A DNA stretch of 64,000 nt from positions 1 to 64,000 of the forward strand of contig NZ_VIRM01000010.1 in assembly GCF_006874475.1 (NCBI RefSeq), read 5' to 3'. The DNA is from Microbispora hainanensis (GTDB lineage Bacteria > Actinomycetota > Actinomycetes > Streptosporangiales > Streptosporangiaceae). The translations under genes and the position numbers were made by a program. Shown here one piece after another: positions 2,430-16,570 of the stretch (position 1 is the stretch's first letter; each line of letters begins with the position of its first letter). The notes beneath the pieces were generated by a model that ran no database searches, was not told the origin of the DNA, and saw nothing but the letters and a program-made list of their open reading frames with translations.

Positions 2430-2669
2430 ATGATGTCTGCGCAATCTCCTGAAGCGATCATCCAAGCCCACTGGTGTGACGTGCTGGGCGTGGAGGAGGC
2501 CCTGCCCGAGGACGGGTTCTTCGAGCTGGGAGGGCATTCGCTGCTGGCGATCGAACTGCTTGAGCGGATCGAGTCGGAGCTGGGCATCGAGATCCCGGCC
2601 GATGTTCTGTTCGTCGAAGGAACGCTGTCAGCGGTCCTCAACGCCGCCGGGAAGGCGATGGCGCAGTGA
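2430..2669 (+). CDS. free-standing acyl/peptidyl carrier protein
   Basis: A 79-residue phosphopantetheine-binding protein. The attachment motif FELGGHSLLA puts the carrier serine at residue 37; the LGGHSL form is more typical of peptidyl carrier proteins than of fatty-acid ACPs. Its role is to hold an acyl or aminoacyl group as a thioester for pathway enzymes. GGAG lies 5 bases before the ATG at 2430 (an adjacent ATG at 2433 is possible). The TGA overlaps the GTG of a following truncated frame (GTGA), so the two were once translationally coupled. Free carriers of this size occur next to acyl-AMP ligases in isonitrile lipopeptide loci (ScoB, Rv0100), and this window has such a ligase at 8676. 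Confidence 0.88.
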   Translation: MMSAQSPEAIIQAHWCDVLGVEEALPEDGFFELGGHSLLAIELLERIESELGIEIPADVLFVEGTLSAVLNAAGKAMAQ

Positions 2670-2785
2670 GGCCGCGCGTCGGGGTGCTCTTCTCGCCCCG
2701 AGGCGCCGCCTCCGCCCGCGATGTACTGGTTGCAGCGGGCGAAGACATCGAGATCGTGCCACTGCTGCGGGTCGGCTCTGGGAAG
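2666..2785 (+). pseudogene. N-terminal fragment resembling an ATP-grasp ligase
   Basis: A GTG overlapping the carrier-protein stop opens a frame starting MRPRVGVLFSPRGAA and continuing through DIEIVPLLR, a first beta strand and helix of the kind seen at the start of ATP-grasp ligases. After roughly residue 35 the sequence stops looking like protein and runs into DNA that makes sense only on the opposite strand. The frame ends at 2860 without any ATP-grasp catalytic motif. I read it as the first 100 bases or so of a gene cut off by a rearrangement; the 3' boundary is approximate. The family assignment rests on fold-like pattern only and is weak. Confidence 0.35.
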
Positions 2786-2890
2786 CGATGGCCCGGGCTC
2801 ACCCCGCTGATCCTGGTCCCGGCCACCGCTCTCTTGAGCCGGTCCGGGAGCGCGGCATAGGCGCGGCCCATGTCGATGAAGTACGTTATC
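2785..2890 (-). pseudogene. internal piece of a ScoE/Rv0097-like Fe(II) oxygenase
   Basis: Read on the minus strand this gives TYFIDMGRAYAALPDRLKRA followed by a stretch ending SPGHR. As I remember the M. tuberculosis Rv0097 sequence, it has TYFIDLARVWQSLP at the equivalent position of the TauD/TfdA fold. The fragment has no start, neither half of the HxD iron motif and no stop of its own. Its downstream end would join almost exactly onto the oxygenase C-terminal piece at 3820-4206 (SPGHR then RVQPTDVF), keeping the spacing of the family. The two halves are therefore one split gene whose parts are in the wrong order. Boundaries are good to about 10 bases. Confidence 0.6.
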
Positions 2891-3025
2891 GGGGTCCGGG
2901 TCGCCGTCGAACAGAGCGGTGTCGGTCGCGAGCAGATGTGCCGCCGTGTAGGTGGAGGGGAGGGGCGTCCGCTCGAGTGCCGCGGGCGGCGCGTCCGCGA
3001 TGACGGCTTCGGCCAGGGGATCCAT
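2891..3025 (-). pseudogene. N-terminal fragment of crotonyl-CoA carboxylase/reductase
   Basis: An ATG at 3025, 3 bases after the thioesterase stop, opens a frame with ALERTPLPSTYTAAHLLATD followed by TALFDG. This fits the N-terminus of crotonyl-CoA carboxylase/reductases (family pattern LPLPESYRAITVHKDETEMF), which make ethylmalonyl- or other alkylmalonyl-CoA extender units for polyketide synthases. About 45 residues remain of roughly 445, and none of the reductase or nucleotide-binding core is present. The frame then runs into the displaced oxygenase piece. Tight coupling to the thioesterase says it was the next gene of that operon before truncation. Confidence 0.5.
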
Positions 3026-3028
3026 GGG

Positions 3029-3823
3029 TTATTCCTCTCTGTCCACGGGCAGGTCCTCGGGATGCGAAAGGACGGCTCGCCGGATGGTCGACATGACCTC
3101 GTGATGCCGATCTCGCAGGTAGAAGTGTCCGCCGGGGAAGAGCCGCAGCCCGGGCTCGCGGCGGCTGTGTGCGCGCCACCCGTCGAGTTCGCCGGAGAGC
3201 GAGTCGTCGGCGCCCCCGAGCAGGGTCATCGGCACGTCCAGCGGCTCGGCGGGCTCGTAGCGGTAGCGGGCGACCATCGTGAGGTCGGCCCGGTAGGCGG
3301 GCGCCACCAGCTTGACCAGCTCGGGGTCCTCGCGTACGGCCGCGGGCACGGTCCCGTACGCCACGTCCACGTAGGCGAGGAGCTCCGCGTCCGGCAACCT
3401 GCCCACGTCCGGCCGGGCGAATTCCAGCTGGGGCGCGGGCATCGCCGACAGCAGCAGATGCGCCGGCGCCCGCCCGCCTCGCGCGACCAGCAGTCGCGCC
3501 GCCTCGAAAGCGAGCAGTGCGCCCAGGCTGTGCCCGAAGAAGGCGAACGGCGCCACCGGCTCCACGGCGCGGACGAAGGCCCGGACGGCCTCACGCACCT
3601 CCAGGTGCGGGGCCTCGGCCAGCCGGCCGCCTCGCCCGGGCAGCTGCACGCCCCATATCTCGGCCTCGGGCAGGTCGTCGGCCCAGCACAGATACTCGGC
3701 GGGCGAGCCGCCGCTGTGCGGGAAGCAGTAGATCCGTATCCGCGCGTCGGGGTTGCGCCGACGGCACAGCAGCCAGGGGGAGGCAGGAGAGGCCCCCTGG
3801 GCCGACGGGCGCTCGGTGATCAC
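3029..3823 (-). CDS. type II thioesterase (alpha/beta hydrolase)
   Basis: A 264-residue editing thioesterase of the PKS/NRPS type II class, which hydrolyses stalled or wrong acyl groups from carrier domains. The frame has the opening IYCFPHSGGSPAEY, the nucleophile elbow FGHSLGA with Ser99, a likely acid Asp206 in GGADDS and the catalytic His233 in PGGHFYL. Length is normal and the gene looks intact. It starts at a GTG that overlaps the stop of the upstream oxygenase fragment (GTGA), so it was translated together with that oxygenase. It is the only complete gene between the carrier protein and the FcoT fusion; whether it is still transcribed after loss of its promoter-proximal gene is unclear. 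Confidence 0.9.
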   Translation of the reverse strand: MITERPSAQGASPASPWLLCRRRNPDARIRIYCFPHSGGSPAEYLCWADDLPEAEIWGVQLPGRGGRLAEAPHLEVREAVRAFVRAVEPVAPFAFFGHSLGALLAFEAARLLVARGGRAPAHLLLSAMPAPQLEFARPDVGRLPDAELLAYVDVAYGTVPAAVREDPELVKLVAPAYRADLTMVARYRYEPAEPLDVPMTLLGGADDSLSGELDGWRAHSRREPGLRLFPGGHFYLRDRHHEVMSTIRRAVLSHPEDLPVDREE

Positions 3824-4206
3824 CAGGCGTGGCCGTCCATCACGGTGACCCGGAACGAGACCGCGGGCTCGGGAGTGGTGGTGTGCAGCGCCCGGTGGAT
3901 CAGGGAGCGGTTGTCCCAGATCAGCAGGTCGCCTTCGTCGAAGGTCTGCAGATGGATGTTCTCGTGGGTGAACGTCATGTCCCGCTGCCCGGTGGCCTCC
4001 AGGAGCTCCGTCAGCACGGAACCGTCCAACGGGGTGCCGTCCTCGTGCAGCAGCTCGTGGGCCAGAGCGTCGCTCACGTAGAGGATCTCCTCGCCGGTCA
4101 CCGGGTGGACGACAACGGTCGGGTGGAAGACGTCGGGGGTCTCCCGCTCGATCTCGGCGAGCACCTCCCCGATCGGCCGGAAGACGTCCGTGGGCTGAAC
4201 ACGACC
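3820..4206 (-). pseudogene. C-terminal half of a ScoE/Rv0097-like isonitrile-forming oxygenase
   Basis: About 127 residues ending in TAG-free TGA at 3820: RVQPTDVFRPIGEV, HPVTGEEILYV, LLEATGQ, FDEGDLLIWDNRSLIHRALH. These follow, from memory, Rv0097 and ScoE (RPSDVYRPIGEV, HPKTGQEILYI, LWDNRVLMHRAKH), Fe(II)/2-oxoglutarate enzymes that convert an N-carboxymethyl beta-amino acid into an isonitrile. The distal iron-binding His (IHRA) and the 2-oxoglutarate-binding Arg region are present. The HxD part and everything before it are missing: homology stops at about 4203-4206, where the + strand begins to encode the truncated FcoT. It cannot be active as it stands. The rest of the middle region lies at 2785-2890. 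Confidence 0.7.
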
Positions 4207-5010
4207 CTGCTGGAAACCGACCACGACCTGCTGGATCGAGTTCTCACGCCGTACAAGGAGCACTGCCGCTATCTGAGGACCGCCATGGTCGAGCGGAGTC
4301 CGGTGGACGGGGCCCTGAGCCTGCACTGCACCTTCGAGATACCCGAGTCCTGTTACATCACCGATACCGGGCACTTCAACTCGGTGGAATTCAACATCTG
4401 TTACAACCAGATGGCGTATTTCCTCATCGCCAAGGCCGTCAAGGAGTCGCTCGTGGAGCCCTTCGACGCCTGGACACTCGACGACTACTGGGAGCGCCAG
4501 CTTCCGAACATCCTCATCACCGACTTCCAGAGCCGGTTCCGTCGCCCCATCGACGCCGCCTCTTTCTCCGGCGTCTTCGAACTCCGCCGGGTCACCGTCC
4601 GCAACAGCGCCCGCCCGCTGATCGTCCTCGGCACCGCCTGCCGCTTCGAGGACGCCGCCGGTGGTCTCTCCGAGGGCACCGTGAAACTCGCCATCACCGA
4701 CCCACCGTTGCCCCTGCACCAGTTGCCCACCCTCGCGCGCGCCGACCGGGAACGGCTCCTGGAACGGGTCGTGCTTCAGGAGTTCCGCAACCATATGTTC
4801 ATGGAGGAGTCCGAGGAACTGGACACCACCAAGACCTACTTCGACCTCGGGCTCACCTCGCTGCAGCTCACCGAGGTGAAGGAGGCCCTGGAGCGGCGCC
4901 TCGACTGCGAGGTCGACACCACCCGCCTGTTCAACAACCCCACCATCGCGCATCTCCTGGAGCACCTCGATGACGTCGTCACCCGATCCGCGGGAATCAC
5001 CGATGCCTAG
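4207..5010 (+). CDS. FcoT-like thioesterase fused to a C-terminal carrier domain, N-truncated
   Basis: From about 4207 the frame reads DLLDRVLTPYKEHCRYL, then TGHFNSVEFNICYNQMAYF, WTLDDYWERQL and SRFRRPIDAASF, the pattern of the hot-dog thioesterase FcoT (Rv0098) and of ScoD in isonitrile biosynthesis. In those pathways this enzyme helps add glycine to an enoyl thioester and release the product. After about residue 180 a carrier domain follows (YFDLGLTSLQL, Ser in DLGLTS), ending at the TAG at 5008. Rv0098 itself, as I recall it, has no carrier domain, so the fusion is unusual. No ATG or GTG start lies at the homology boundary; the open frame continues upstream to 3829 through antisense of the oxygenase. 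The true N-terminus is lost at the same point as that of the oxygenase piece. Confidence 0.72.
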   Translation: MLETDHDLLDRVLTPYKEHCRYLRTAMVERSPVDGALSLHCTFEIPESCYITDTGHFNSVEFNICYNQMAYFLIAKAVKESLVEPFDAWTLDDYWERQLPNILITDFQSRFRRPIDAASFSGVFELRRVTVRNSARPLIVLGTACRFEDAAGGLSEGTVKLAITDPPLPLHQLPTLARADRERLLERVVLQEFRNHMFMEESEELDTTKTYFDLGLTSLQLTEVKEALERRLDCEVDTTRLFNNPTIAHLLEHLDDVVTRSAGITDA

Positions 5011-8000
5011 GACGTACGAGAACGCGCCCATCGCGATCGTCGGCATGGGGATCCGCTTCCCGGGCGGCAACGACGAACCCGCCGGATTCCAGCGGTTCCT
5101 GCGGGAGGGCCGCTCGGCTATCGGCCCGCTGCCCGAGGGGCGGCTGCCAGGACTCCCCGAGGATGTCACGGCGGCGGGCGGCTACCTGGATTCCATCGAG
5201 GGCTTCGACGCCGGGTTCTTCAACATCTCGCCGAAGGAGGCCGCCTGGGTCGACCCGCAGCACCGGCTGACCCTTGAGACCGCCTGGGAGGCGCTGGAGG
5301 ACGCCGGCATCGACCCCACATCCCTGCGCCACGGCGACACCGGTGTGTATGTCGCCGTCACCGGCATGGACTACGCCATGGAGATCGCCAGGCTTCCGGT
5401 CGACCAGGTCGAACTGTACGCGGGCACCGGCATGTTCCACTGCGGAGCCTCGGGCCGCATCTCGTACTTCCTCGGCCTGCGCGGGCCGAGCATGAGCGTC
5501 GACGGCGCCGCCGTGATCGCGCTCAAGCGGCTCGCCGACGCCCGCAGGGACGGCGATCGGGTCCTCGCGGTCATCCGAGGCTCCGCCGTGCGTCAGGACG
5601 GCGAGAGCGCCGCGCTGATGGCACCGAACGGCGAGGCTCAGGCCCTGCTGATGCGGGCTGCGCTCGACGATGCGGGGCTCGACGCGGCCGACATCCAGTA
5701 CGTGGAGGCGCACGGGACCGGCACGGCGCTCGGGGACCCCATCGAGATGAGCGGGATCGCCGAGGTGTTCTCCGCCTCCCATACCAAGGACAATCCCGTC
5801 CTGGTCGGGTCGGTGAAGACCAACTTCGGTCATCTCGAGTCCACGGCGGGCCTCGCAGGGCTTGTCAAGACCGTGCTTCAGCTGCGCGACCGCACGGTCT
5901 ATCCGCACATCAACTTCACGACACCGTCCCGCAAGATCCCCTGGGAGCGCATCCCGGTGCGGGTGCCGGTGACCGCGACGCCGTGGGAGGCCGCCGGCGC
6001 CCGCCTCGCCCTCGTCAACTCCTACGGGGCCACCGGTACGATCGCCTCCGTCGTCCTCGAAGAGGCGGACGAGCGGGAACCGGCGCCCGAGGCACGGGAT
6101 CGGGAGTCCGGTCCCGTCCCCGGCATCTTCACCCTGTCCGCGAAGAGCGCCCGGTCCCTGCAGCTCCAACTCGACGCCTACGCGGCCTTCATGGCGGACC
6201 GAACCGACGATGAGGTCGCGGACATCTGCCGCACCACGAACGTCGGCCGCGCACACCACCTCTGGCGGGTATCCGCACCCGTGACGACCGCGGCGGAGCT
6301 GGTCGACTTCATCGACCGACGGCGCGCCCGGCCCGCGGGGCCACGCCCGTCGGCGGGCCGCAAGAACATCGCCCTGATGTTCGCCGGCGGCGGCTCGCAG
6401 TACGCGGGCATGGGGCTCTCGCTGTACCGGAGGTTCCCGGTCTTCCGGGAGCACCTCGATCGCTGCGACGAGCTGTTCGCTCCGCTGGTGGACTCGGTGC
6501 GGGACGACATCCTGACGGACGGACCCCCGGACCGCGAACAGGTGGAGAGCGCCACCGTCCTGACGGCGCGCCTGTTCTCGCTGGAATACGCGCTGGCCCG
6601 GCTGTGGCTGTCGCTGGGCGTACGGCCCGGGGTCCTGCTCGGGCACAGCCTCGGCGAGATCGTCGCCGCCGCGGTGTCCGGCGTCCTCACCTTGGAGGAC
6701 GCCGTCCGGCTGGTGTCCGCACGCGGCACACTCCTGGACCGGACCTCCGCCGGGTCCATGGCCGCGGTGGATGCCTCCCGGGAGGAGGTGCTGCCCTTCC
6801 TCGCCGGCCGCCCAGACGCCTCCCTCGGCGCCGTCAACGGCCCCACCCAGTGCGTGATCTCGGGTGCCGGCAGATCCGTCGCGGAGGTCGCGTCGCTCCT
6901 GGAGGCACGCGGCGTCAAGGTGAAGTTACTGCGGGTGCCGTGCGCCTCGCACTCCCCGCTGATGGACGAGATCGCCGAGGAGTACCGCGCGGTGCTCGAC
7001 GGGATCCGGTTCGGCGAGCCGGAGTTCCCCATCGCCTCCGCCGTGCTCGGCCGGATGGCTGCCAACGGCGAGATGAGCACACCGGAGTTCTGGCTGCGCC
7101 ATCTGCGCTCCACCGTGAACTTCGCGGATGCGGTGCGCGCCGTCGAGGAGCGCGGGCGGCACATCTTCCTGGAGGTCGGCCCCGGGGCGGAACTCCTCGG
7201 CATGGGCCGCGAGTGCGTGACCGACGACGGCCATCTGTGGCTCGGCAGCCTGCACCGGGGCGATTTGAGCGGGGAGACGATGCGGCTCACCGTGTCCCGC
7301 CTCTACAACGCCGGGGTGCCGATCTCCTGGACGGCCTGGCACGAGGGCACGGCCGGCGCCCGCGTCTCGCTCCCGAAGTACGCCTTCGACCGCAAGCCGT
7401 ACTGGCTTCCAGCCCCCGCGGACACGGGGGCCTCGCCGGATCCGGCGGAGTACCACCCGCTGCTGGGCCGCGAGGCGCCCCCCACGCCATCCCCGGCCGG
7501 CACAGAGGCCGTCTTCGTGTCCCGGATCAACGCCTCCCGGCCGTCGTACCTCGCCGAGCACGATCTGAACGGCACCTCCGTCTTCCCCGGCACCGGCTTC
7601 GTCGAGATGCTGTTCGCCGTCCAGGACGCGCTGTTCGGGGAGACGATCCGGCCGGTCGAGGATCTCGCCTTCCACGAACCGCTCTTCCTCTCGGCCGAGT
7701 TCGTGTCCGTGCGCACCCGTGTACGCGCCGAGCCCGACGGCACCCGGCAGGTCGAGATCAGCAGCCTGCTGGGCCCGGCGGAGGCCTCCGTGGAACGAGT
7801 ACATGTCACCGCACGTATCGGCCACGCTGCGGACCTGGCCGTCGTACGCCCGGACATCCCTGCCGGGGAAGCCGGCCTGACCCTGTCCCGGGACGAGTTG
7901 AGCGCCTACTACCGCGATCACGGGGCGAGGTACGGGCCGACATTCCAGACCCTGGAGCGGGCCGTCCGGTACGGCGAGGATGGCGACGGGACAACAGTGG

Positions 8001-8674
8001 TGGGCCAGATCCACGGACGCCGACCCGCGTCGTCCGACTTCCTGCACCCCGCCCTGCTCGCCGGAGCCCTGCAGAGCGCGGCGGCCCTGTTCGCGGACCG
8101 GCGGACGGAGGGCTTCGCGTACGTACTCGTCAGCGCGGAGCGCGCCCGGCTGCTGCGCAAACCACGGGGCACGTCCCTGCGGAGCGTGCTGCGTGTGATC
8201 GCCCGCGAGGAACAGCGGGTCGGGGCCGATCTCACGCTCCTCGACGAGGAGGGAGCCGTGGTCTTCGCCATGAGCGGCCTGTCCTTCCGGCGTGTGTCCG
8301 TCGCCGGCCCCCGTCCGGTTGGTGCCGGTGGGCCGATCGACACCAACCGGACGACCGGCGCCACGCCCGCGATCGACGCAGCCGCCTGGAACGAGCTGGA
8401 CGAGCCGCGGCGCACGGAGATCGCCCGCGCCTTCCTGCTCTCCCGCGTCGCTGAGCTCCTCTGCTTCGATGACCCGGGTGACATCCCCGAGAACGCGTCG
8501 TTCTTCGAACTGGGCATGGACTCGCTCATCGCCGTCAAGCTCAAGAGCGCCGCGGAGACGGCGTTCCGCGTCCCCCTGGAGGCGCGGACCCTGTTCGAGA
8601 ACGCCACGGTCGAAGCCCTGGCCACCGCCCTCGCGGCGAAGGCGCCCTCCGCCCCGTCCACGGAACGAGTCTGA
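5003..8674 (+). CDS. type I polyketide synthase module (KS-AT-DH-ACP) with defective KS
   Basis: A 1223-residue PKS protein whose ATG overlaps the FcoT-ACP stop. KS: starts IAIVGMGIRFPGG near residue 10 and keeps the two catalytic histidines (VEAHGTGT His237, NFGHLES His277). The segment that should carry TACSSS is missing: MSVD (to 167) runs directly into GAAVIALKRL, an in-frame loss of about 75-80 residues. AT: FAGGGSQYAGMG near 459, GHSLGE with Ser549, specificity motif CASH at 647-650, which is neither the malonyl HAFH nor the methylmalonyl YASH. DH: HDLNGTSVFPG with His853, but the second motif is LLAGALQ, with Ala1020 where Asp is usual. ACP: GMDSL with Ser1174. There is no KR, ER or TE. 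As read it can load and carry an acyl group but cannot condense. Confidence 0.9.
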   Translation: MPRTYENAPIAIVGMGIRFPGGNDEPAGFQRFLREGRSAIGPLPEGRLPGLPEDVTAAGGYLDSIEGFDAGFFNISPKEAAWVDPQHRLTLETAWEALEDAGIDPTSLRHGDTGVYVAVTGMDYAMEIARLPVDQVELYAGTGMFHCGASGRISYFLGLRGPSMSVDGAAVIALKRLADARRDGDRVLAVIRGSAVRQDGESAALMAPNGEAQALLMRAALDDAGLDAADIQYVEAHGTGTALGDPIEMSGIAEVFSASHTKDNPVLVGSVKTNFGHLESTAGLAGLVKTVLQLRDRTVYPHINFTTPSRKIPWERIPVRVPVTATPWEAAGARLALVNSYGATGTIASVVLEEADEREPAPEARDRESGPVPGIFTLSAKSARSLQLQLDAYAAFMADRTDDEVADICRTTNVGRAHHLWRVSAPVTTAAELVDFIDRRRARPAGPRPSAGRKNIALMFAGGGSQYAGMGLSLYRRFPVFREHLDRCDELFAPLVDSVRDDILTDGPPDREQVESATVLTARLFSLEYALARLWLSLGVRPGVLLGHSLGEIVAAAVSGVLTLEDAVRLVSARGTLLDRTSAGSMAAVDASREEVLPFLAGRPDASLGAVNGPTQCVISGAGRSVAEVASLLEARGVKVKLLRVPCASHSPLMDEIAEEYRAVLDGIRFGEPEFPIASAVLGRMAANGEMSTPEFWLRHLRSTVNFADAVRAVEERGRHIFLEVGPGAELLGMGRECVTDDGHLWLGSLHRGDLSGETMRLTVSRLYNAGVPISWTAWHEGTAGARVSLPKYAFDRKPYWLPAPADTGASPDPAEYHPLLGREAPPTPSPAGTEAVFVSRINASRPSYLAEHDLNGTSVFPGTGFVEMLFAVQDALFGETIRPVEDLAFHEPLFLSAEFVSVRTRVRAEPDGTRQVEISSLLGPAEASVERVHVTARIGHAADLAVVRPDIPAGEAGLTLSRDELSAYYRDHGARYGPTFQTLERAVRYGEDGDGTTVVGQIHGRRPASSDFLHPALLAGALQSAAALFADRRTEGFAYVLVSAERARLLRKPRGTSLRSVLRVIAREEQRVGADLTLLDEEGAVVFAMSGLSFRRVSVAGPRPVGAGGPIDTNRTTGATPAIDAAAWNELDEPRRTEIARAFLLSRVAELLCFDDPGDIPENASFFELGMDSLIAVKLKSAAETAFRVPLEARTLFENATVEALATALAAKAPSAPSTERV

Positions 8675-8675
8675 G

Positions 8676-10217
8676 ATGCCCACCACCCTTGCCGCATCGA
8701 TCCGGCGCAATGCCCGGATGTTCCCGGACCGCACGGCGCTGCGGTGCGAGGACCACTCCTTGAGCTATGCCGAGCTCGACCACGAGAGCGACCGCACCGC
8801 GGCCGCGCTGCACGCCGCCGGGTTGGGCGCCGGATCCCGTGTCGCCTATCTGGGCAAGGAGCCCACGCACTACTACGACGTGCTGTTCGGCTGCGCGAAG
8901 ACCGGCGCGGTCCTCGTTCCGATCAACTGGCGTCTCACCGCGGCGGAGATCCGGCACATCCTGGCCGACTCCACCGCCCGGCTCCTGTTCGTGGAGAAGG
9001 AGTTCCTGGCCGCCGTCGAGGAGCTCGCCCCCGCGCTGCCCGACCTCGGCCGGCTCGTCGTCCTGGAGGACCTCGAGACCTGGAAGTCCGCCGCCCCGAT
9101 CTCCATGCCGCAGACCGCACCCCTCGGCCCCGACACCCCGGTCGCCCAGATCTACACCAGCGGCACCACAGGGCTGCCCAAGGGCGTCGTCCTGGCCCAC
9201 CGCACCTTCTTCGCCGTACGGGAGATGCTGGACCGCGCCGGACTGGACTGGATCGACTGGCGGGACGGTGACCGGAGCCTGATCGGGTTGCCCGGCTTCC
9301 ACATCGGCGGTCTGTGGTGGGCGGTGCAGGGACTGAACGCCGGGGTCACCAACATCGCGCTGCGTTCGTTCGTCAGCGGCGAGGTCCTCCGGCTGATCCG
9401 GGACGAGGGCGTGACCACCACCTGCATGGTCCCGGCCATGCTCCACATGCTGACCACCGAACGCAACGCCACACCGGCCCACTTCGCCACGCTCCGCAAG
9501 GTGGTCTACGGCGGTTCGCCGATCTCGGAGGCCCTGCTGGGGCGTTGCCTCGCCCTCATGGGCTGCGACTTCGCCCAGATCTACGGTCTGACGGAGACCG
9601 GCAACACGGCCGTCTGTCTCCCCCCGGAGGCCCACACCCGGGGCGGAGCACTCCTCAAGGCCGCGGGCCGTCCGTACCCGGGCGTCGACGTCGTGGTGAC
9701 CGACCGACACGGCGAGCCGCTGCCCATGGGGTCGATCGGGGAGATCCGCATCCGCACCCCGGCGCGCATGACGGAGTACTGGAACCTCCCCCAGGCGACC
9801 GAGGAGACCGTCGACGACGGCTGGATCCGCACCGGCGACGCCGGCTACCTGGACGCGGAAGGGCACGTCTATATCTGCGACCGCATCAAGGATGTCGTCA
9901 TCGTCGCCGGCGAGAAAGCCTACCCGGCCGAGATCGAAAAGGCCCTCGAAGGACTTCCCGCCGTCGCCGAGGCGGCGGTCGTCGGCATCCCCGACGACCG
10001 CTGGGGCGAACGGCTCCACGCGGTCGTCGTCCTGGCCCCCGGCGCGACGGCGACCCCTCGCACCCTGACCCTCGGCCTGCGCACCGCCCTTGCCGCCTAC
10101 AAGATCCCCACAAGCTGGGCGTTTGCCGACTCGATCCCCCGGAACCCGAGCGGCAAGATCCTCCGCCGCCTCCTGCGGGAACCGTTCTGGGCCGACCGCG
10201 ACCGAAACGTCGGCTGA
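8676..10217 (+). CDS. acyl-AMP ligase / fatty acyl-CoA synthetase (ANL family)
   Basis: A 513-residue adenylate-forming enzyme that activates a carboxylic acid with ATP and passes it to CoA or a carrier protein. P-loop YTSGTTGLPKG at 160-170, YGLTETG, GWIRTGDAGYL, and the C-terminal lysine motif NPSGKILRR with Lys494. The ATG at 8676 follows the PKS stop by one base, so the two are co-translated. In isonitrile lipopeptide loci a ligase of this class (FadD10, ScoC) loads a fatty acid on a free carrier protein like the one at 2430. The family cannot be pinned to fatty acid versus other acid from motifs alone. It is the last gene of the cluster; the next gene has its own control region. Confidence 0.9.
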   Translation: MPTTLAASIRRNARMFPDRTALRCEDHSLSYAELDHESDRTAAALHAAGLGAGSRVAYLGKEPTHYYDVLFGCAKTGAVLVPINWRLTAAEIRHILADSTARLLFVEKEFLAAVEELAPALPDLGRLVVLEDLETWKSAAPISMPQTAPLGPDTPVAQIYTSGTTGLPKGVVLAHRTFFAVREMLDRAGLDWIDWRDGDRSLIGLPGFHIGGLWWAVQGLNAGVTNIALRSFVSGEVLRLIRDEGVTTTCMVPAMLHMLTTERNATPAHFATLRKVVYGGSPISEALLGRCLALMGCDFAQIYGLTETGNTAVCLPPEAHTRGGALLKAAGRPYPGVDVVVTDRHGEPLPMGSIGEIRIRTPARMTEYWNLPQATEETVDDGWIRTGDAGYLDAEGHVYICDRIKDVVIVAGEKAYPAEIEKALEGLPAVAEAAVVGIPDDRWGERLHAVVVLAPGATATPRTLTLGLRTALAAYKIPTSWAFADSIPRNPSGKILRRLLREPFWADRDRNVG

Positions 10218-10263
10218 GCCGGGGCGCGCGCCACGGGGACGACGAGGGCCCACAGGGCGTTGA

Positions 10264-10313
10264 CTTTGTCGCAAGTTATGACGCACCATGCTGCTACAAA
10301 GCTTGCGACAAAG
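10264..10313. promoter_or_regulatory. perfect 12-bp inverted repeat, probable GntR/YtrA operator
   Basis: CTTTGTCGCAAG (10264-10275) and its exact complement CTTGCGACAAAG (10302-10313) flank a 26-base spacer, just before the membrane-protein ATG at 10322. A TTGACT at 10260-10265 overlaps the left arm and may be a -35 box, so a bound regulator would block the promoter. The GntR regulator encoded second in this operon is the natural ligand. The right arm also leaves AAGGGGG as a possible ribosome binding site. Confidence 0.6.
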
Positions 10314-10321
10314 GGGGCGTT

Positions 10322-10855
10322 ATGACCCGTGAACCGTTACCGGACGCCGGCCCGCCGGCGCGTGCGGCCGATCTGCAACTGGCGGGCACGTGGCTGGCCC
10401 GGCACGACTTGGCCGGCGCCCGCCCGACCCCGCTGCTGGCCAGCCGGCTGGCGGTCCGGAGACGCGCCCGCCGCGCCGCTCACGTCATCCTGGCCGTGCT
10501 GATCCTCGCGAGCGCGCTCGCCGCGGCCTACGACCGGCTCGCCAGTTCCGCCTTCGGCGGCTTCCAGCCGCATCGACCGCTGCCGCTGCTGGCCCTGACC
10601 GCGCTGGTGGCCGGGCTGCTGCCGGCACAGTCGCTGACCGCCGACGTCATCATGCGCGTCGAGGACGCCCGCGACCTCACCACGCCGAACGTGCAGTGGT
10701 CGCTGCCCATGGTGCTGCTGTTCGGCACCGCGCCCGGCTGGTGGAGCGCTGCTTCGGTCGCCTACCTGATCCTGGGCCTGGTCGCGTGCGTCGCGCTCCA
10801 TACCAGGACGCCGTCGAGCGCGACGGTGGCCCGGCGGGCCATGAGCGTCCGATGA
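10322..10855 (+). CDS. membrane protein of unknown function in a GntR operon
   Basis: A 177-residue protein I do not recognise. The first half is soluble and basic (LASRLAVRRRARRAAH). Then come a hydrophobic segment (VILAVLILASALAAAY), a second (LPLLALTALVAGLLPAQS) and a pair near the C-terminus (WSLPMVLLFGTAPGWWSA and SVAYLILGLVACVAL), giving about four membrane spans. There is no ABC signature or transporter motif. Its ATG stop overlap with the downstream GntR (ATGA) shows a two-gene operon. YtrA-type GntR regulators commonly sit with membrane and ABC genes responding to cell-wall stress; here the ATPase is absent. It is likely repressed through the inverted repeat just upstream. Confidence 0.7.
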   Translation: MTREPLPDAGPPARAADLQLAGTWLARHDLAGARPTPLLASRLAVRRRARRAAHVILAVLILASALAAAYDRLASSAFGGFQPHRPLPLLALTALVAGLLPAQSLTADVIMRVEDARDLTTPNVQWSLPMVLLFGTAPGWWSAASVAYLILGLVACVALHTRTPSSATVARRAMSVR

Positions 10856-11229
10856 TCGTCATCGATGCGGCCTCGCCGGTGCCGCCGTTCGAGCAGCTGC
10901 GGGCCCAACTCGCCCGGCAGATCCAGGACCGCACGCTGGCCGTGGGCACCCGGCTGCCGACCATCCGCCACCTCGCGGCCGACCTCGGCCTGGCCGTCAA
11001 CACGGTCGGCCGGGCCTACCGGGAGCTGGAGGAGGCGGGGCTGATCGAGACGCGCGGGCGGGCGGGCTCGTTCGTGTCGGCCGCCGGCGAGGAGGGCCGG
11101 GAGCGAGCCCGCCGGGCCGCCGCCGACTACGCGGCCGTGATCGCCAGCGTCGGCATCGACGCAGGCGAGGCGATCCGCATCGTACAGGCGGCTCTGACGT
11201 CCGGCGCGGCAGCACCGGCCTCGTCATGA
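10852..11229 (+). CDS. GntR-family regulator, YtrA subfamily
   Basis: A 125-residue DNA-binding protein. The N-terminal winged helix reads PPFEQLRAQLARQI, GTRLPTIRHLAADLGLAVNT, RAYRELEEAGLIETR, RGRAGSFV, as in GntR proteins. The C-terminal part is only about 45 residues, too short for a FadR or HutC effector domain, which is the mark of the YtrA subfamily (dimerisation helices only). It begins at an ATG overlapping the stop of the membrane protein. It probably represses its own operon by binding the repeat at 10264-10313. Confidence 0.88.
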   Translation: MIVIDAASPVPPFEQLRAQLARQIQDRTLAVGTRLPTIRHLAADLGLAVNTVGRAYRELEEAGLIETRGRAGSFVSAAGEEGRERARRAAADYAAVIASVGIDAGEAIRIVQAALTSGAAAPASS

Positions 11230-11255
11230 CCGCGACCCGGCCGCGGGGTCATGAC
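11223..11255. terminator. inverted repeat at end of the GntR gene
   Basis: GTCATGACC (11223-11231) and GGTCATGAC (11247-11255) are exact complements around a 15-base GC-rich spacer; the left arm includes the gntR stop codon. It could form a stable hairpin and end transcription, although no T-run follows, which is common in actinomycetes. It could equally be a regulatory site. Confidence 0.4.
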
Positions 11256-11393
11256 GCCGGGCGCACGACGCGGGCGTAGCGGCCGATCAGGCGGCGTCCG
11301 AGCCGCTTCAGGTTCCAGGTGCGGTGCCGACAGCACCAACCACCGCCAGGAGTGCCTGGTTTTCTGAACAACCGAGCGCCTTTACAGCGTAGA

Positions 11394-12137
11394 TCACGGA
11401 AGGAATTCGCTCAGCAGACGGGTGACCTCGGCGGGGCGCTCCAGGCTCGGCAGGTGACCCGCCCAGTCGAGTTCGAGCAGCGTGGCGTCCGGCAGCTCCT
11501 CCGCCAGGTGACGTCCGCTCTCCCGGAAGTACGGCAGGTCGTGCCCACCCGTGACCACCAGCGTGGGCGCGGTGACCACCGTCAGGTCGATCGGATCCCT
11601 GCGCCGCTCAGGCTCGGGCTCGGCGGCCAGCTGCACCTCGAACGCGTGCCGCTGCATCGCCGCCACCCGCGCCCTGACCGGTTCGTCCGCCTCGGGGCCC
11701 AGCCACGTGCGGACGTTGAGGTCCACCGCTCCCCCGACGTCGCCCGCCTCGATCAGCCGGTCCTCCTCCGTCCCGAACGCTTCGAGGTCGGGAGTGGGCG
11801 GCAGGCCGCAGCCCGCGTTCAGCAGCACGAGCCGCGAGACGAGGCCGGGATGCCCGGTCGCGAGCTCCAGCGCGACCCGCCCGCCGTACGACGATCCGAC
11901 GAGCCTGACCTGGCGCAGCCCGAGGGCGGCGAGCAGGTCCGCGACGTCGCCGGCGTCCGTGTAGGGCCCGTCGGCGACGCACGGCGTGCGCCCGTGCCCC
12001 CGGAAGTCGAGCCGGATGACGCGGAACCGCTCGCCCAGCGGCTTCCACTGGGGGTCCCACATGCCCGAGTCGGCGACGCTGGAGTGCAGCAGGACGACGG
12101 GCTCGCCGGAGCCGGTTTCCTCATGCCAGACGGTCAT
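11394..12137 (-). CDS. alpha/beta-fold hydrolase
   Basis: A 247-residue hydrolase of the general alpha/beta fold. Visible elements: PVVLLHSSVADSGMWDPQW (oxyanion strand), RVIRLDFRGHGRT, nucleophile elbow VGSSYGG with the serine in GSSYGG, an acid in TGGHDLP and the terminal histidine in WAGHLPS. The set is complete, so it is likely an active esterase or lyase; substrate unknown. It starts at an ATG (12137) that overlaps the end of the LysE-like gene, so both form one minus-strand operon. It lies next to the rifamycin-inducible helR gene but is transcribed away from it, and I see no functional link. Confidence 0.85.
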   Translation of the reverse strand: MTVWHEETGSGEPVVLLHSSVADSGMWDPQWKPLGERFRVIRLDFRGHGRTPCVADGPYTDAGDVADLLAALGLRQVRLVGSSYGGRVALELATGHPGLVSRLVLLNAGCGLPPTPDLEAFGTEEDRLIEAGDVGGAVDLNVRTWLGPEADEPVRARVAAMQRHAFEVQLAAEPEPERRRDPIDLTVVTAPTLVVTGGHDLPYFRESGRHLAEELPDATLLELDWAGHLPSLERPAEVTRLLSEFLP

Positions 12138-12541
12138 CGGGCCTCCAAAGCGACGCGGACGCCGAGGGCGACCAGGACCGTCCCCGACACCTGTTCCAAA
12201 CGGCGGCGGACCGCGGGCCTGCCGAGCACGGCACCGGCCCGGCCGATCAGCCAGATCACCCCGACGTACCAGACGACGTCCACGACCACCCAGACCACCG
12301 CGAGCATGGTCAGGGTCAGCGGCACATGGGCGCCCTGGGGCACGAACTGCGGCAGGAACGACATCGCGAACACGGCGGCCATCGCCCACAGGAAGATGCC
12401 CGTCTCGTTGCCGAGGAGCGCCGCCACACCGGACGAGCGCCCGGACCTGAGCGTCTGTCTCAGGATCACCGCGGTGCTGACACCCGGGATCATCGCGAGC
12501 AGGAAACACGAACCGACAAAAGCGATCCAAATCACGCGCAC
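12134..12541 (-). CDS. LysE/RhtB-family exporter with an internal deletion
   Basis: The N-terminus (FLLAMIPGVSTAVILRQTLRSGRSSGVAALLG) and the C-terminus (FLPQFVPQGA, then RLEQVSGTVLVALGVRVAL) are typical of the LysE/RhtB amino acid exporters. The protein has only 135 residues against about 205. The missing part is central: AMAA near residue 56 runs straight to VFAMSFLPQF, omitting the family's KLAGAAYLxYLG helix and the LLxNPK motif. The frame is kept, which hides the damage. It probably does not work as an exporter. The hydrolase that follows overlaps its stop. Start ATG at 12541. Confidence 0.75.
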   Translation of the reverse strand: MRVIWIAFVGSCFLLAMIPGVSTAVILRQTLRSGRSSGVAALLGNETGIFLWAMAAVFAMSFLPQFVPQGAHVPLTLTMLAVVWVVVDVVWYVGVIWLIGRAGAVLGRPAVRRRLEQVSGTVLVALGVRVALEAR

Positions 12542-12677
12542 ATCGTTTCGGCGGGGCCCGAACGCCGCAACCGCTTTACCAGCCGGTGCACCGCCGGCAG
12601 GTGGCTGTGCCTCCGCAGCGCGAAAAGGAGAAAAGGGGACTATCCTTCCCCTCCATCTTCAACGTATAGCGCCCAGG

Positions 12678-12697
12678 GGGGCTTGCGGCAAGACCCC
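12678..12697 (+). promoter_or_regulatory. rifamycin-associated element (RAE) upstream of helR
   Basis: The run GGGGCTTGCGGCAAGACCCC matches, as I remember it, the 19-bp partly palindromic RAE found before rifamycin-inactivation genes and helR in actinomycetes (GGGGCTTGCGGCAAGGCCC). One base differs by that recollection. It lies 165 bases before the helR start on the same strand, so it predicts induction of helR by rifamycins. The remainder of the 12542-12861 gap shows only a weak hairpin at 12635-12651. Confidence 0.8.
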
Positions 12698-12861
12698 TGC
12701 CATGCTCCACAATCGTCGGCCGGAAGCAGCGCCTGCGGAAAACGGGGGACGCGACGTGCGCGTTGCCGTCGACGCACGGGCCGCGCGGGGACTTCGTCAC
12801 GCCGGTTCGGGCGCCGTGGTGCGTTGAACGGTCGCTAGCGACCCAGATCGGAGCTGATGAC

Positions 12862-15006
12862 GTGAACCCGCTGCCCACCAGCGCGTTCGACCTTCCCGGC
12901 CGCCTCTCTCACAAGGCCGATCCGAGGTTGGTCGCCGCCGACGAGCGGCACTTCGCGGCCATCGCGGAGAGCCTCGAACAGTCGATCGCCGACCTGGCCG
13001 GTCGCCTCGACGCCGAGCTCAAGGCGCCCGGCGGCAAGGGCCGGCAGGCGATGGACCGGGACCTGGAGGTCCATCGGCTGACCGCCCGCCTGCGCGTGCT
13101 GCGTCGTTTCGGCCTCGACCTGTGCCTCGGGCACATGGTCGGCGAGGACGATCCCGAGCCCGTGTACATCGGACGGCTCGGCCTCACCGACAGCGCCGGT
13201 CGCCGGCTGCTGGTCGACTGGCGCTCCCCCGCGGCCGAGCCGTTCTTCGGCGCCACCCACGCCAACCCGATGGGGCTCGCCAGCCGCCGCAGGTATCGCT
13301 GGACCCGGGGCCGGATCAGCGACTACTGGGACGAGGTGTTCACCCCGGACGGGTTCGAAGGGCACGCCGCGCTCGACGACCAGTCCGCTTTCATCGCCAG
13401 CCTGGGCGGCAGCCGGTCACCGCGGATGCGCGACGTGCTCGGCACCATCCAGGCCGACCAGGACGCCGTCATCCGCGCGGGGTCACAGGGCGCCCTCGTC
13501 GTCGACGGCGGTCCGGGCACGGGGAAGACCGTCGTCGCCCTGCACCGCTCCGCCTATCTCCTCTACTCCGACCCTCGCCTCGGTCACCGCCGGGGCGGCG
13601 TACTGTTCGTCGGCCCGCACCAGCCCTACCTGGCGTACGTCGCCGACGTCCTGCCCAGCCTCGGTGAGGAGGGCGTGCAGACCTGCACCCTGCGGGACCT
13701 CGTCCCCGAGGGAGCGGCCGCGACGGTGGAGACCGACCCGGACGTGGCCCGCCTGAAGTCGTCCGCGGATCTGGTGAAGGCGATCGAGCCTGCCGTCAGG
13801 TTCTACGAGAATCCGCCCACCACGCCGATGACGGTCACGACCCCCTGGTCCGGCATCCCGCTCAGTGCCGACGACTGGGCCGAGGCGTTCGACGCACCGG
13901 ACCCGGGCACTCCCCACAACGAGGCGCGTGACCAGATCTGGGCGGAACTGCTCACCATCCTGGTGGACAAGCACGACGGCGACGCGCCGGCCGACCTGGT
14001 CCGCACGTCGCTGCTGCGCGACAGGGACCTGCTCACGACCTTCAACCGCGCCTGGCCGCTGATCGAGCCGGCCGACCTCGTCGGAGACCTGTGGTCGGTG
14101 CCCGCCTACCTGCGGTTGTGCGCACCGTGGCTCAGCCCCGAGGAGGTGCGGAAGCTGCAGCGCGCGGACGCCCAGGCCTGGACGGTCTCCGACCTGCCGC
14201 TCCTTGACGCGGCGCGGCAGCGGCTCGGCGACCCGGAGGCGTCGCGGCACAGGCGACGCAGGGAGGCCGCGCTCGCCGCCCAGCGCGAGCACATGGCGCA
14301 GGTCGTCGAGAACCTGATCGAAGCCGACGACGACGGCGAGGGCCTGGTGACGCAGCTGCGCCGGGAGGACCTCCAGCGCAATCTGGTCGACGAGTCCGAG
14401 CTGCCCACGCTCGATCCGGACCGGCTCGCCGGCCCGTTCGCGCACGTCGTCGTGGACGAGGCGCAGGAGCTCACCGACGCGGAATGGCAGATGCTGCTGC
14501 TCCGCTGCCCGTCCCGGAGCTTCACGATCGTCGGAGATCGCGCCCAGGCCAGGCACGGGTTCACCGAGTCGTGGCAGGAACGGCTCAAGCGGATCGGGCT
14601 CGACCGGATCGAACTCGCCTCCCTGAGCATCAACTACCGGACGCCGGAAGAGGTCATGGCGGAGGCCGAGCCGGTCATCCGGGCCGTGCTCCCGGACGCC
14701 AACGTGCCGGCCTCCGTCCGCGGCAGCGGCGTCCCCGTCGTACACGGCTCGGTTTCGGAACTGCGCTCGATCCTCGACAGCTGGCTCGCCGCCAACGCCG
14801 AGGGGATCGCCTGCGTCATCGGCCATCCCGCGTTCCAGGGCAGCGCGCGCGTCCGTTCGCTGTCCCCGGAGCTGTCGAAGGGGCTCGAGTTCGACCTGGT
14901 CGTCCTCGTCGACCCGGAGAAGTTCGGCGAAGGCATCGAAGGAGCGGTCGACCGCTATGTCGCCATGACCAGGGCGACCCAGCGGCTCGTCATCCTCACG
15001 AGCTGA
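12862..15006 (+). CDS. helR: HelR, HelD-like RNA polymerase recycling ATPase (rifamycin tolerance)
   Basis: A 714-residue superfamily-1 helicase-like protein. N-terminal coiled region (ADERHFAAIAESLEQSIADL), then VDWRSPAAEPFF and RYRWTRGRISDYWDEVF, then Walker A GGPGTGKTVVALHR with Lys222, VVVDEAQELT with Asp532/Glu533, GDRAQARHGF, SINYRTPEEV and the C-terminal SKGLEFDLVVLVD with AMTRATQRL. This is the HelD class; HelR is the actinomycete form that displaces rifamycin from RNA polymerase. The GTG at 12862 has GGAG nine bases upstream; a longer frame opens at 12763 without a good site. The RAE at 12678 supports the HelR reading over a generic HelD. The organism probably tolerates low rifamycin. 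Confidence 0.92.
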   Translation: MNPLPTSAFDLPGRLSHKADPRLVAADERHFAAIAESLEQSIADLAGRLDAELKAPGGKGRQAMDRDLEVHRLTARLRVLRRFGLDLCLGHMVGEDDPEPVYIGRLGLTDSAGRRLLVDWRSPAAEPFFGATHANPMGLASRRRYRWTRGRISDYWDEVFTPDGFEGHAALDDQSAFIASLGGSRSPRMRDVLGTIQADQDAVIRAGSQGALVVDGGPGTGKTVVALHRSAYLLYSDPRLGHRRGGVLFVGPHQPYLAYVADVLPSLGEEGVQTCTLRDLVPEGAAATVETDPDVARLKSSADLVKAIEPAVRFYENPPTTPMTVTTPWSGIPLSADDWAEAFDAPDPGTPHNEARDQIWAELLTILVDKHDGDAPADLVRTSLLRDRDLLTTFNRAWPLIEPADLVGDLWSVPAYLRLCAPWLSPEEVRKLQRADAQAWTVSDLPLLDAARQRLGDPEASRHRRRREAALAAQREHMAQVVENLIEADDDGEGLVTQLRREDLQRNLVDESELPTLDPDRLAGPFAHVVVDEAQELTDAEWQMLLLRCPSRSFTIVGDRAQARHGFTESWQERLKRIGLDRIELASLSINYRTPEEVMAEAEPVIRAVLPDANVPASVRGSGVPVVHGSVSELRSILDSWLAANAEGIACVIGHPAFQGSARVRSLSPELSKGLEFDLVVLVDPEKFGEGIEGAVDRYVAMTRATQRLVILTS

Positions 15007-15886: not shown

Positions 15887-16342
15887 TTAACGGTGTAACG
15901 GATGACGGGCCGCGAGGTCCTGCAGCCACGTCAGGGAGTCGTGGGCGGCCTTGATCCGCTCGGTGCGGCGCCCCTCGCCGCCCACGATGTCGAGCCCTTC
16001 GTCGGCGATCTCGCCGAACGCGCTCAGGCTTTCGAGCTTGCGCTGGATGACCTTCTGCCAGGCGTCGTCTTCGATGCGGTAGTAGGAGACGCGATCGCCG
16101 GGCTTTCTCACCTTCTTGACCAGGCCGATGGCCGTGAGGAAGCGCATGTTCGAGGTGAGCGAGGCCCGGCTGGCCTGGATGACTTCCGCGATCCGGCCGG
16201 CGGACTGCTCGGCGGGATCGCAGATCATGAGCCAGCCGAGGATGCGTCCGGTGATGGGCGGCAGCCCCCACTCCTCGACGCAGAAGGCCGCCACCCGCTC
16301 CACCCAGCGGAGCAGCCGGTCCTGCTGTGCCTCAGTGCTCAT
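15887..16342 (-). CDS. GbsR/MarR-family transcriptional regulator
   Basis: A 151-residue winged-helix protein: FCVEEWGLPPITGRILGWLM, SAGRIAEVIQASRASLTSN (recognition helix), KKVRKPGDRVSYYRIED (wing), then a C-terminal dimerisation helix. WGLPPITGRILG is characteristic of the GbsR group. ATG at 16342. It is divergent from the monooxygenase; three 17-bp palindromes lie in the 228-base gap and are the obvious binding sites. It probably represses both directions until a ligand is present. Confidence 0.88.
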   Translation of the reverse strand: MSTEAQQDRLLRWVERVAAFCVEEWGLPPITGRILGWLMICDPAEQSAGRIAEVIQASRASLTSNMRFLTAIGLVKKVRKPGDRVSYYRIEDDAWQKVIQRKLESLSAFGEIADEGLDIVGGEGRRTERIKAAHDSLTWLQDLAARHPLHR

Positions 16343-16463
16343 CGTCGCGTCCTCCTCGGCCGATCGTGTGCCGGTTCACATGGCGTGCTCCATGCTTGAT
16401 TGCTAGTTGTTTCAACTCTGACTGAAATGTCTATCACTGTCAATCCGCTTGGAACGGCGCGGT

Positions 16464-16517
16464 TTGGAGCATTGTTCCAAGGTGGAGTACGGTTCCACGA
16501 TTGGAGCGATGCTCCAA
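16464..16517. promoter_or_regulatory. array of three 17-bp palindromic operators
   Basis: Three near-identical palindromes in a row: TTGGAGCATTGTTCCAA (16464-16480), GTGGAGTACGGTTCCAC (16482-16498) and TTGGAGCGATGCTCCAA (16501-16517). All fit TGGA-N9-TCCA, with starts 18 and 19 bases apart, a little under two helix turns. A fourth half-site, TTGGAAC, precedes them at 16449. The array lies 54 bases before the monooxygenase start and about 120 bases from the regulator start, so it can control both. Cooperative binding by the GbsR/MarR protein at 15887 is inferred. Confidence 0.8.
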
Positions 16518-16570
16518 AAGCTGCCTCCTGGGGGTTTCCGCCGGGTGGCCCTGGTCGAAGGAGCCTCAAG

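Follow-up and report, generated by a model that had tools for sequence, protein, structure and literature searches.

What would a gene set of the isonitrile lipopeptide kind make when it is joined to a polyketide synthase (PKS) in place of a nonribosomal peptide synthetase (NRPS), and can it still make anything? The question is raised by a locus of Microbispora hainanensis (assembly GCF_006874475.1, contig NZ_VIRM01000010.1). The DNA analysed, here called the window, comprises the opening 64 kb (64,000 nucleotides) of a 180-kb contig in a draft genome of 251 contigs, and the cluster within it lies between a dehydratase gene (379-2238) and the end of a ligase gene at 10217. Isonitriles are an uncommon chemical group that binds metals; lipids that carry one bind copper and have antibiotic activity. 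Judged from its domains, the locus very probably joins an isonitrile-type gene set to a PKS. With good confidence, it can be described more narrowly as a broken cluster of the ScoE/ScoD isonitrile kind, probably broken recently, which has a single non-reducing type I PKS module in the place of the NRPS and belongs to the same subtype as a locus of Nocardia brevicatena (L022).

A preliminary description of this DNA had recognized a free carrier protein, a ScoE/Rv0097-like oxygenase in pieces, a thioesterase resembling FcoT and ScoD, an acyl-AMP ligase and a PKS with ketosynthase (KS), acyltransferase (AT), dehydratase (DH) and acyl carrier protein (ACP) domains in the NRPS position. Family searches recovered each of them (Table 1). 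In the Protein Data Bank (PDB), the C-terminal oxygenase piece is closest to solved ScoE (2.4e-46), followed by 6l86 (1.6e-44), chains labelled as the fatty-acid oxygenase/decarboxylase (about 1e-32) and 3r1j (9.4e-9). Entry 6l86 was deposited as 'Taurine catabolism dioxygenase' and ranks between ScoE entries; we take it to be a ScoE relative. An origin of the pieces from a taurine dioxygenase, which the preliminary description had named as a result that would refute its reading, was rejected on the gap between ScoE (2.4e-46) and 3r1j (9.4e-9). The pieces, at 191 and 23.6 bits, stay under the NF049937 (ScoE) cut-off of 400, for which they are far too short. In the L022 oxygenase, their counterparts are residues 144-168 (76% identity over 25 residues) and residues 178-304 (78% identity).

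The thioesterase passes the Pfam FcoT model with ease (PF10862, 206.5 bits, cut-off 27). Its PDB matches are 5wsy/5wsx (5.5e-54; deposited as uncharacterized, presumably SAV606) and Rv0098 (2.8e-26), with nothing else at E 0.01, and the suspicion of an unrelated hot-dog protein can be set aside. A ScoD function is likely by homology, though not formally called, because the domain scores 224.6 bits against the ScoD equivalog cut-off of 250 (NF049938), as two intact relatives likewise fall short (L022, 192 bits; L025, 217.4 bits). No NRPS condensation domain was found in the window by a genome-wide search; its 14 matches all lie elsewhere in the genome, the nearest on the contig being at 142 kb (43.7 bits). 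The preliminary description had also joined a crotonyl-CoA carboxylase/reductase (CCR) fragment to the PKS. The fragment exists, but lies outside the PKS and represents the beginning of its own gene. Its best PDB match is the N-terminus of 4a0s, an octenoyl-CoA carboxylase/reductase; the other PDB match stands only at E 1.2, and the fragment has no match to TIGR01751 (CCR, cut-off 378.55) or any other NCBIfam model.

Table 1. Features of the M. hainanensis cluster and of the related N. brevicatena NBRC 12119 locus (L022).
Locus	Feature	Position	Strand	Evidence
Window	Free carrier protein, peptidyl carrier protein (PCP) type, motif LGGHSLL	2430-2669	+	PP-binding 2.3e-16; ATG 2430; open reading frame (ORF) intact
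Window	ScoE-type oxygenase, middle piece	2812-2889	-	NF049937 model 128-153, E 2.3e-5 (repeat search 5.2e-4)
Window	CCR gene, N-terminal 44 residues, then cut off	2894-3025	-	phmmer against PDB: 4a0s residues 3-45, E 6.9e-4
Window	Type II thioesterase (TEII; alpha/beta hydrolase)	3029-3823	-	Pfam Thioesterase 5.2e-40; ORF intact
Window	ScoE/Rv0097-type oxygenase, C-terminal piece	3820-4203	-	NF049937 2.3e-56, model 163-288; PDB ScoE 2.4e-46
Window	FcoT/ScoD-type thioesterase fused to ACP	4207-5010	+	Pfam FcoT 2.1e-61; PP-binding 7.2e-12; NCBIfam ScoD NF049938 5.6e-67
Window	KS-AT-DH-ACP PKS, without enoylreductase (ER) or ketoreductase (KR)	4970-8674	+	Domain search
Window	Acyl-AMP/CoA ligase	8676-10217	+	AMP-binding 1.3e-79; start ATG 8676; ORF intact
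L022	ScoE, directly before FcoT	9033-9944		460 bits, cut-off 400
L022	FcoT	9965-10510		NF049938 192 bits
L022	ACP	10503-10823		
L022	PKS, KS-AT-DH-ACP	10840-14745		
L022	Ligase	between PKS and CCR		68% identical to window ligase
L022	CCR, full, after ligase	16337-17584		TIGR01751 589 bits, cut-off 378.55

Intact relatives of the locus with the same core order exist. A scan of the genomes of 84,980 species with short conserved patterns from the FcoT-ACP protein, which reach close relatives only, gave 35 loci; further loci came from genome searches, with neighbourhoods fetched for part of those matches. The 70 loci classified by neighbourhood comprise 26 with ScoE and a second, distant adenylation-type match (it is this match, not a domain scan, that stands behind the label NRPS-linked); 22 in which ScoE accompanies a PKS that gives a KR match (counting the duplicates L085, L086 and L128); 16 with FcoT and no ScoE match within 3.5 kb (14 distinct, as L041 and L118 are duplicates); 2 without KR (L022 and L053); and 4 others. 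The label is wrong for L053, where the contig end cuts the locus inside the ER. The core order ScoE - FcoT - PKS is thus found in 21 distinct loci, namely the 22 rows minus duplicates, plus L022 and the edge-cut L053. A ligase match lies downstream in 19 of these (in L122 and L129 partial, at the locus end); the exceptions are L052, with the ligase on the other strand, and L053, which is cut. Two of the loci come from outside the actinomycetes, L051 from an Alteromonadaceae bacterium and L052 from a Planctomycetota metagenome-assembled genome, and both have ScoE - FcoT - ACP - reducing PKS. Locus L088 (genome G526) combines ScoE - FcoT - PKS with a KR match, no ER match and the AT motif YASH; the same genome carries a cluster that looks NRPS-type (L087).

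Searches at family and order level returned the same nine genomes besides the organism's own (of 341 and 345 genomes), and all nine neighbourhoods were classified; the class-level search also returned nine besides its own (of 394), of which five neighbourhoods from four genomes were classified and five genomes (f4 g71) left out. In the genus of G448, where 26 of 295 genomes have a match, 23 of 32 listed matches were examined, plus G741 (L029). Matches were also present in 26 of 401 genomes of the family of G482 (f4) and in 24 of 150 genomes of the genus of G1206 (g98), presumably Nocardia; among 18 loci taken from these two groups, 16 have a ScoE-type match, and a match to KS or CCR was seen in none of the 18. 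No FcoT match was found in the 14 listed genomes of the same genus as M. hainanensis, and the matches examined held no further member of the subtype. By its gene content, L022 is the sole intact relative of the window's kind among the loci found. The duplicate rows L085, L086, L128, L118 and L041 were dropped; the FcoT tree also omits eight rows aligned across a stop codon as well as L055 and L131, and L030 and L033 lie outside the sets used for the neighbourhood domain search and the PKS motif alignment.

The cluster of N. brevicatena comprises six genes in about 8.5 kb, intact by its open frames. A tree of the PKS from the C-terminal part of KS to the N-terminal part of DH (20 rows) joins it to the window at 100/100 and places the pair beside L024, L053, L054 and L136 at 100/99. 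Among PKS-linked loci, only these two lack both ER and KR (L088 lacks ER only, and L053 is cut): no PKS-type ER or KR match was found in the 64-kb window at E 1e-3 or in the 20 kb of L022, a separate FabG-type reductase not having been searched for in either. The two also share the replacement of the catalytic DH Asp by Ala, a residue that is Asp in 21 of 21 other aligned PKS rows (18 distinct loci). The AT motif reads CASH in the window and VASH in L022, as against HAFH in 16 of 21 other rows; the rest have CASH (L053, L054, L136), CAAH (L024) or, in L088, YASH. HAFH marks malonyl specificity, and other AT motifs mostly mark branched extenders. A full CCR follows the ligase in L022 and is closest in the PDB to AntE (649.5 bits), which supplies alkylmalonyl units for antimycin. 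No match to P450 was found in the 64-kb window, none to P450, TEII or free PCP in L022, and no condensation domain in the L022 ORFs scanned. By these features, the window and L022 form a separate non-reducing, CCR-linked branch of the PKS-linked isonitrile clusters.

The window copy carries several lesions. The preliminary description had mentioned neither the loss in the KS nor the absent FcoT start, and it had likewise passed over the replaced DH Asp and the TEII gene. In the KS, exactly 68 codons are missing in frame at the junction 5503/5504; in the alignment with the L022 PKS (identity at 719 of 1205 aligned positions), the gap starts right at the TACSSS motif and takes with it the active-site Cys, whose loop is kept in all 22 relative rows (19 distinct loci). 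The oxygenase retains model positions 128-153 and 163-288 only, apart from each other and in swapped order. ScoE binds its iron by a 2-His-1-Asp site (PMC7949033), and the counterpart of L022 oxygenase residues 1-143, which holds the HxD motif, is gone from the window. The conserved block of FcoT opens a few codons past the junction with the oxygenase piece, and its natural N-terminal region has no start codon; in frame, the closest candidates are GTG 4123, which lies antisense to the oxygenase piece, and ATG 4285, which falls inside the conserved block and comes too late. As read, the window copy cannot work, because the oxygenase N-terminal part, the KS active-site Cys and the natural FcoT start are all gone, and in all likelihood it is dead. 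The minus-strand pieces lie between the carrier protein and FcoT in the order C-terminal oxygenase - TEII - CCR start - middle oxygenase, such that TEII separates the two oxygenase pieces; the middle piece does not share a frame with the CCR piece preceding it. This order is what would remain if oxygenase-TEII-CCR had undergone circular permutation or tandem duplication and had then lost parts by deletion; junction repeats able to explain the rearrangement were short or weak ones only. Across the genome's contigs, no ScoE was found over the cut-off (besides the two pieces, contig C186 has one distant match of 96 bits) and no CCR either (best 88.9 bits); FcoT is present in one copy, and the missing KS segment has no match. 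A plasmid search gave 14 records, none spanning 80% of the query.

Several observations weigh against this account. In both the window and L022, the FcoT domain fails to reach the curated cut-off for ScoD. Support for pairing the two in the FcoT tree is weak (71/27; 74% of bootstrap trees), and the PKS tree, which joins them firmly, flags L022 for unusual letter make-up (L051 too). The AT motif alone is no marker of the subtype, since three loci without a CCR match have CASH too (L053, L054 and L136; L024, with CAAH, likewise has no such match). The subtype has one intact member, and its link to CCR consists of L022 plus a 44-residue relic; the relic has no significant alignment with the L022 CCR, and the two may be CCRs of different types, a point the piece is too short to settle. 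As regards decay, the control genomes of the ScoE search were likewise all without ScoE over the cut-off, and the empty result for the KS segment was flagged by the search tool as showing little. Apart from the lesions, the frames of the PKS, ligase, PCP and TEII have stayed open, as would not be expected in a long-dead cluster; this suggests that the cluster broke not long ago.

The anatomy of L022 and of the window's ancestor allows a pathway to be proposed. The ligase would activate an alpha,beta-unsaturated fatty acid and load it onto a carrier protein. In the published reactions of the two families, FcoT/ScoD would then put glycine on the beta carbon, and ScoE would convert the N-carboxymethyl amine to the isonitrile; glycine addition by CmiS1/SAV606-type thioesterases and isonitrile formation by an iron oxygenase are described in PMC11284099. 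The isonitrile acyl chain would pass to the PKS, which would add one alkylmalonyl unit supplied by CCR and leave the beta-keto group unreduced. Such a single unreduced alkylmalonyl extension of a beta-isonitrile acyl chain, drawn from domain content, is a tentative proposal, and the model leaves product release in L022 unaccounted for. On this proposal, the same PKS would have recruited CCR twice if the CCRs are of two types, which would point to selection for an unusual extender.

The main competitor supposes that the PKS itself, helped by a KR and an ER in trans, makes the enoyl chain on which FcoT and ScoE then work, as the amycomicin type would do; the cluster would then be a reduced pathway of that kind. 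Because the window/L022 PKS nests among reducing PKSs in the tree, its ancestor probably did make such a chain; the ligase lies downstream under both arrangements, and the missing P450 is not distinctive, as PKS-linked loci without a P450 match exist (L021, L023, L051, L052). The want of a PKS-type KR or ER match in either locus, within the limits given above, and the shared loss of the DH Asp speak against it, and this explanation is judged unlikely. Far less probable still is that FcoT makes a beta-amino acid starter, as the CmiS1/SAV606-type enzymes do for macrolactams (PMC11284099), and that no isonitrile arises. FcoT without a ScoE match within 3.5 kb is common, being the case in the 16 rows counted above, mostly beside PKS domains, but ScoE pieces lie at the window locus and a full ScoE stands directly before FcoT in L022. 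Two other FcoT loci are worth recording: L160 (9588-10085, plus strand) has FcoT with no ScoE or ligase match in 20 kb, while the same genome has a ScoE-linked FcoT (L161), and in Actinomadura macrotermitis (L014/L041) FcoT lies beside a distant ligase (29%) with no ScoE match.

Other doubts concern the state of the window copy. Assembly errors could lie behind the shuffled oxygenase/CCR pieces and the gap in the KS and thereby hide an intact locus, a reading to which the 251-contig draft, the start of the window at a contig end and the permuted order of the pieces lend something; it is nonetheless improbable, as neither the missing part of the oxygenase nor a CCR over the cut-off turned up on any contig, and the KS loss is of exactly 68 codons, in frame. 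It is similarly improbable, perhaps slightly more so, that the frames left open (PCP, TEII, FcoT-ACP, AT-DH-ACP and ligase) still serve another function. The 1234 PKS codons and the ligase without a stop are what favours this, but a PKS whose KS has lost its Cys cannot carry out condensation with that KS, and FcoT has no nearby start. A recently broken isonitrile-type cluster remains the preferred reading of the window.

The preliminary description had held a PKS-linked isonitrile pathway to be undescribed, which is not the case: amycomicin and aerocyanidin already have such a pathway. Amycomicin (BGC0001504) is placed in a type I PKS network, and its pathway is cited with AmcQ, AmcB and P450s (PMC13273461); its cluster is reported by antiSMASH at 100% in Streptomyces sp. 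JH14 (PMC10037901), from which L037 comes, and L037 would be that cluster. The amycomicin-like PKS is tabulated as KS-ATm-DH-ER-KR-ACP (PMC9967187). Loci that we assign to the amycomicin/aerocyanidin type share the core of ScoE-type oxygenase, FcoT, type I PKS and ligase without an NRPS, and the window has this set too, with ScoE only as pieces. However, those loci have KS-AT-DH-ER-KR-ACP (as in L025), one or more P450s and an extra KS, none of which the window or L022 has, whereas a CCR is present in L022 and as a relic in the window. The isonitrile lipopeptide clusters (scoA-E; rv0097-rv0101), the mycobacterial nrp cluster among those described (PMC9600254), share ScoE, ScoD/FcoT, an acyl ligase and a carrier protein, but have an adjacent NRPS where the window and L022 have PKS and CCR. 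The macrolactam thioesterases CmiS1/SAV606 belong to the same domain family as the window FcoT (5wsy/5wsx), but such FcoT loci have no nearby ScoE match. The closest likeness is to N. brevicatena, which shares ScoE, FcoT, ACP, KS-AT-DH-ACP (60% identical), ligase and CCR; there, unlike in the window, the genes are intact, FcoT and ACP are separate ORFs rather than fused, and the CCR is AntE-like, whereas the window fragment matches 4a0s. The open-licence literature, judged in part by titles and the opening of abstracts, yielded no account of a non-reducing, CCR-bearing subtype, nothing on CCR with isonitrile, and nothing on N. brevicatena with a biosynthetic gene cluster. The PKS-linked isonitrile class is already in print, and the window together with N. 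brevicatena is a narrower subtype within it, of which no description was found within the scope searched.

Two neighbouring genes complete the picture of the region. At the cluster's edge, 379-2238 on the plus strand encodes a relative of dihydroxy-acid dehydratase (best NCBIfam score 432.6 against a curated cut-off of 644), unmatched in the relatives' loci searched for it. Beyond the ligase, 12763-15006 on the plus strand encodes a HelR-type RNA polymerase recycling ATPase (NF041254, 1302.6 bits, cut-off 750), of a family associated with rifamycin tolerance.

The window itself holds only a relic of the subtype, which N. brevicatena carries in intact form. The ScoE/ScoD-made isonitriles found described are linked either to peptides or to reducing PKSs, and the survey extends PKS-linked isonitrile-type clusters beyond the actinomycetes. 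A speculative suggestion, based on gene content, is a third kind of ScoE/ScoD pathway, carried by N. brevicatena and by the window's ancestor. In it, a beta-isonitrile acyl chain would be made first, as in the lipopeptides, and then lengthened once by a non-reducing, CCR-fed PKS module; the product would be an alpha-alkyl beta-keto delta-isonitrile, which might serve as a new copper ligand. If true, this non-reducing, CCR-fed kind would offer a new scaffold with a predicted isonitrile position, encoded by a small cluster of six genes.

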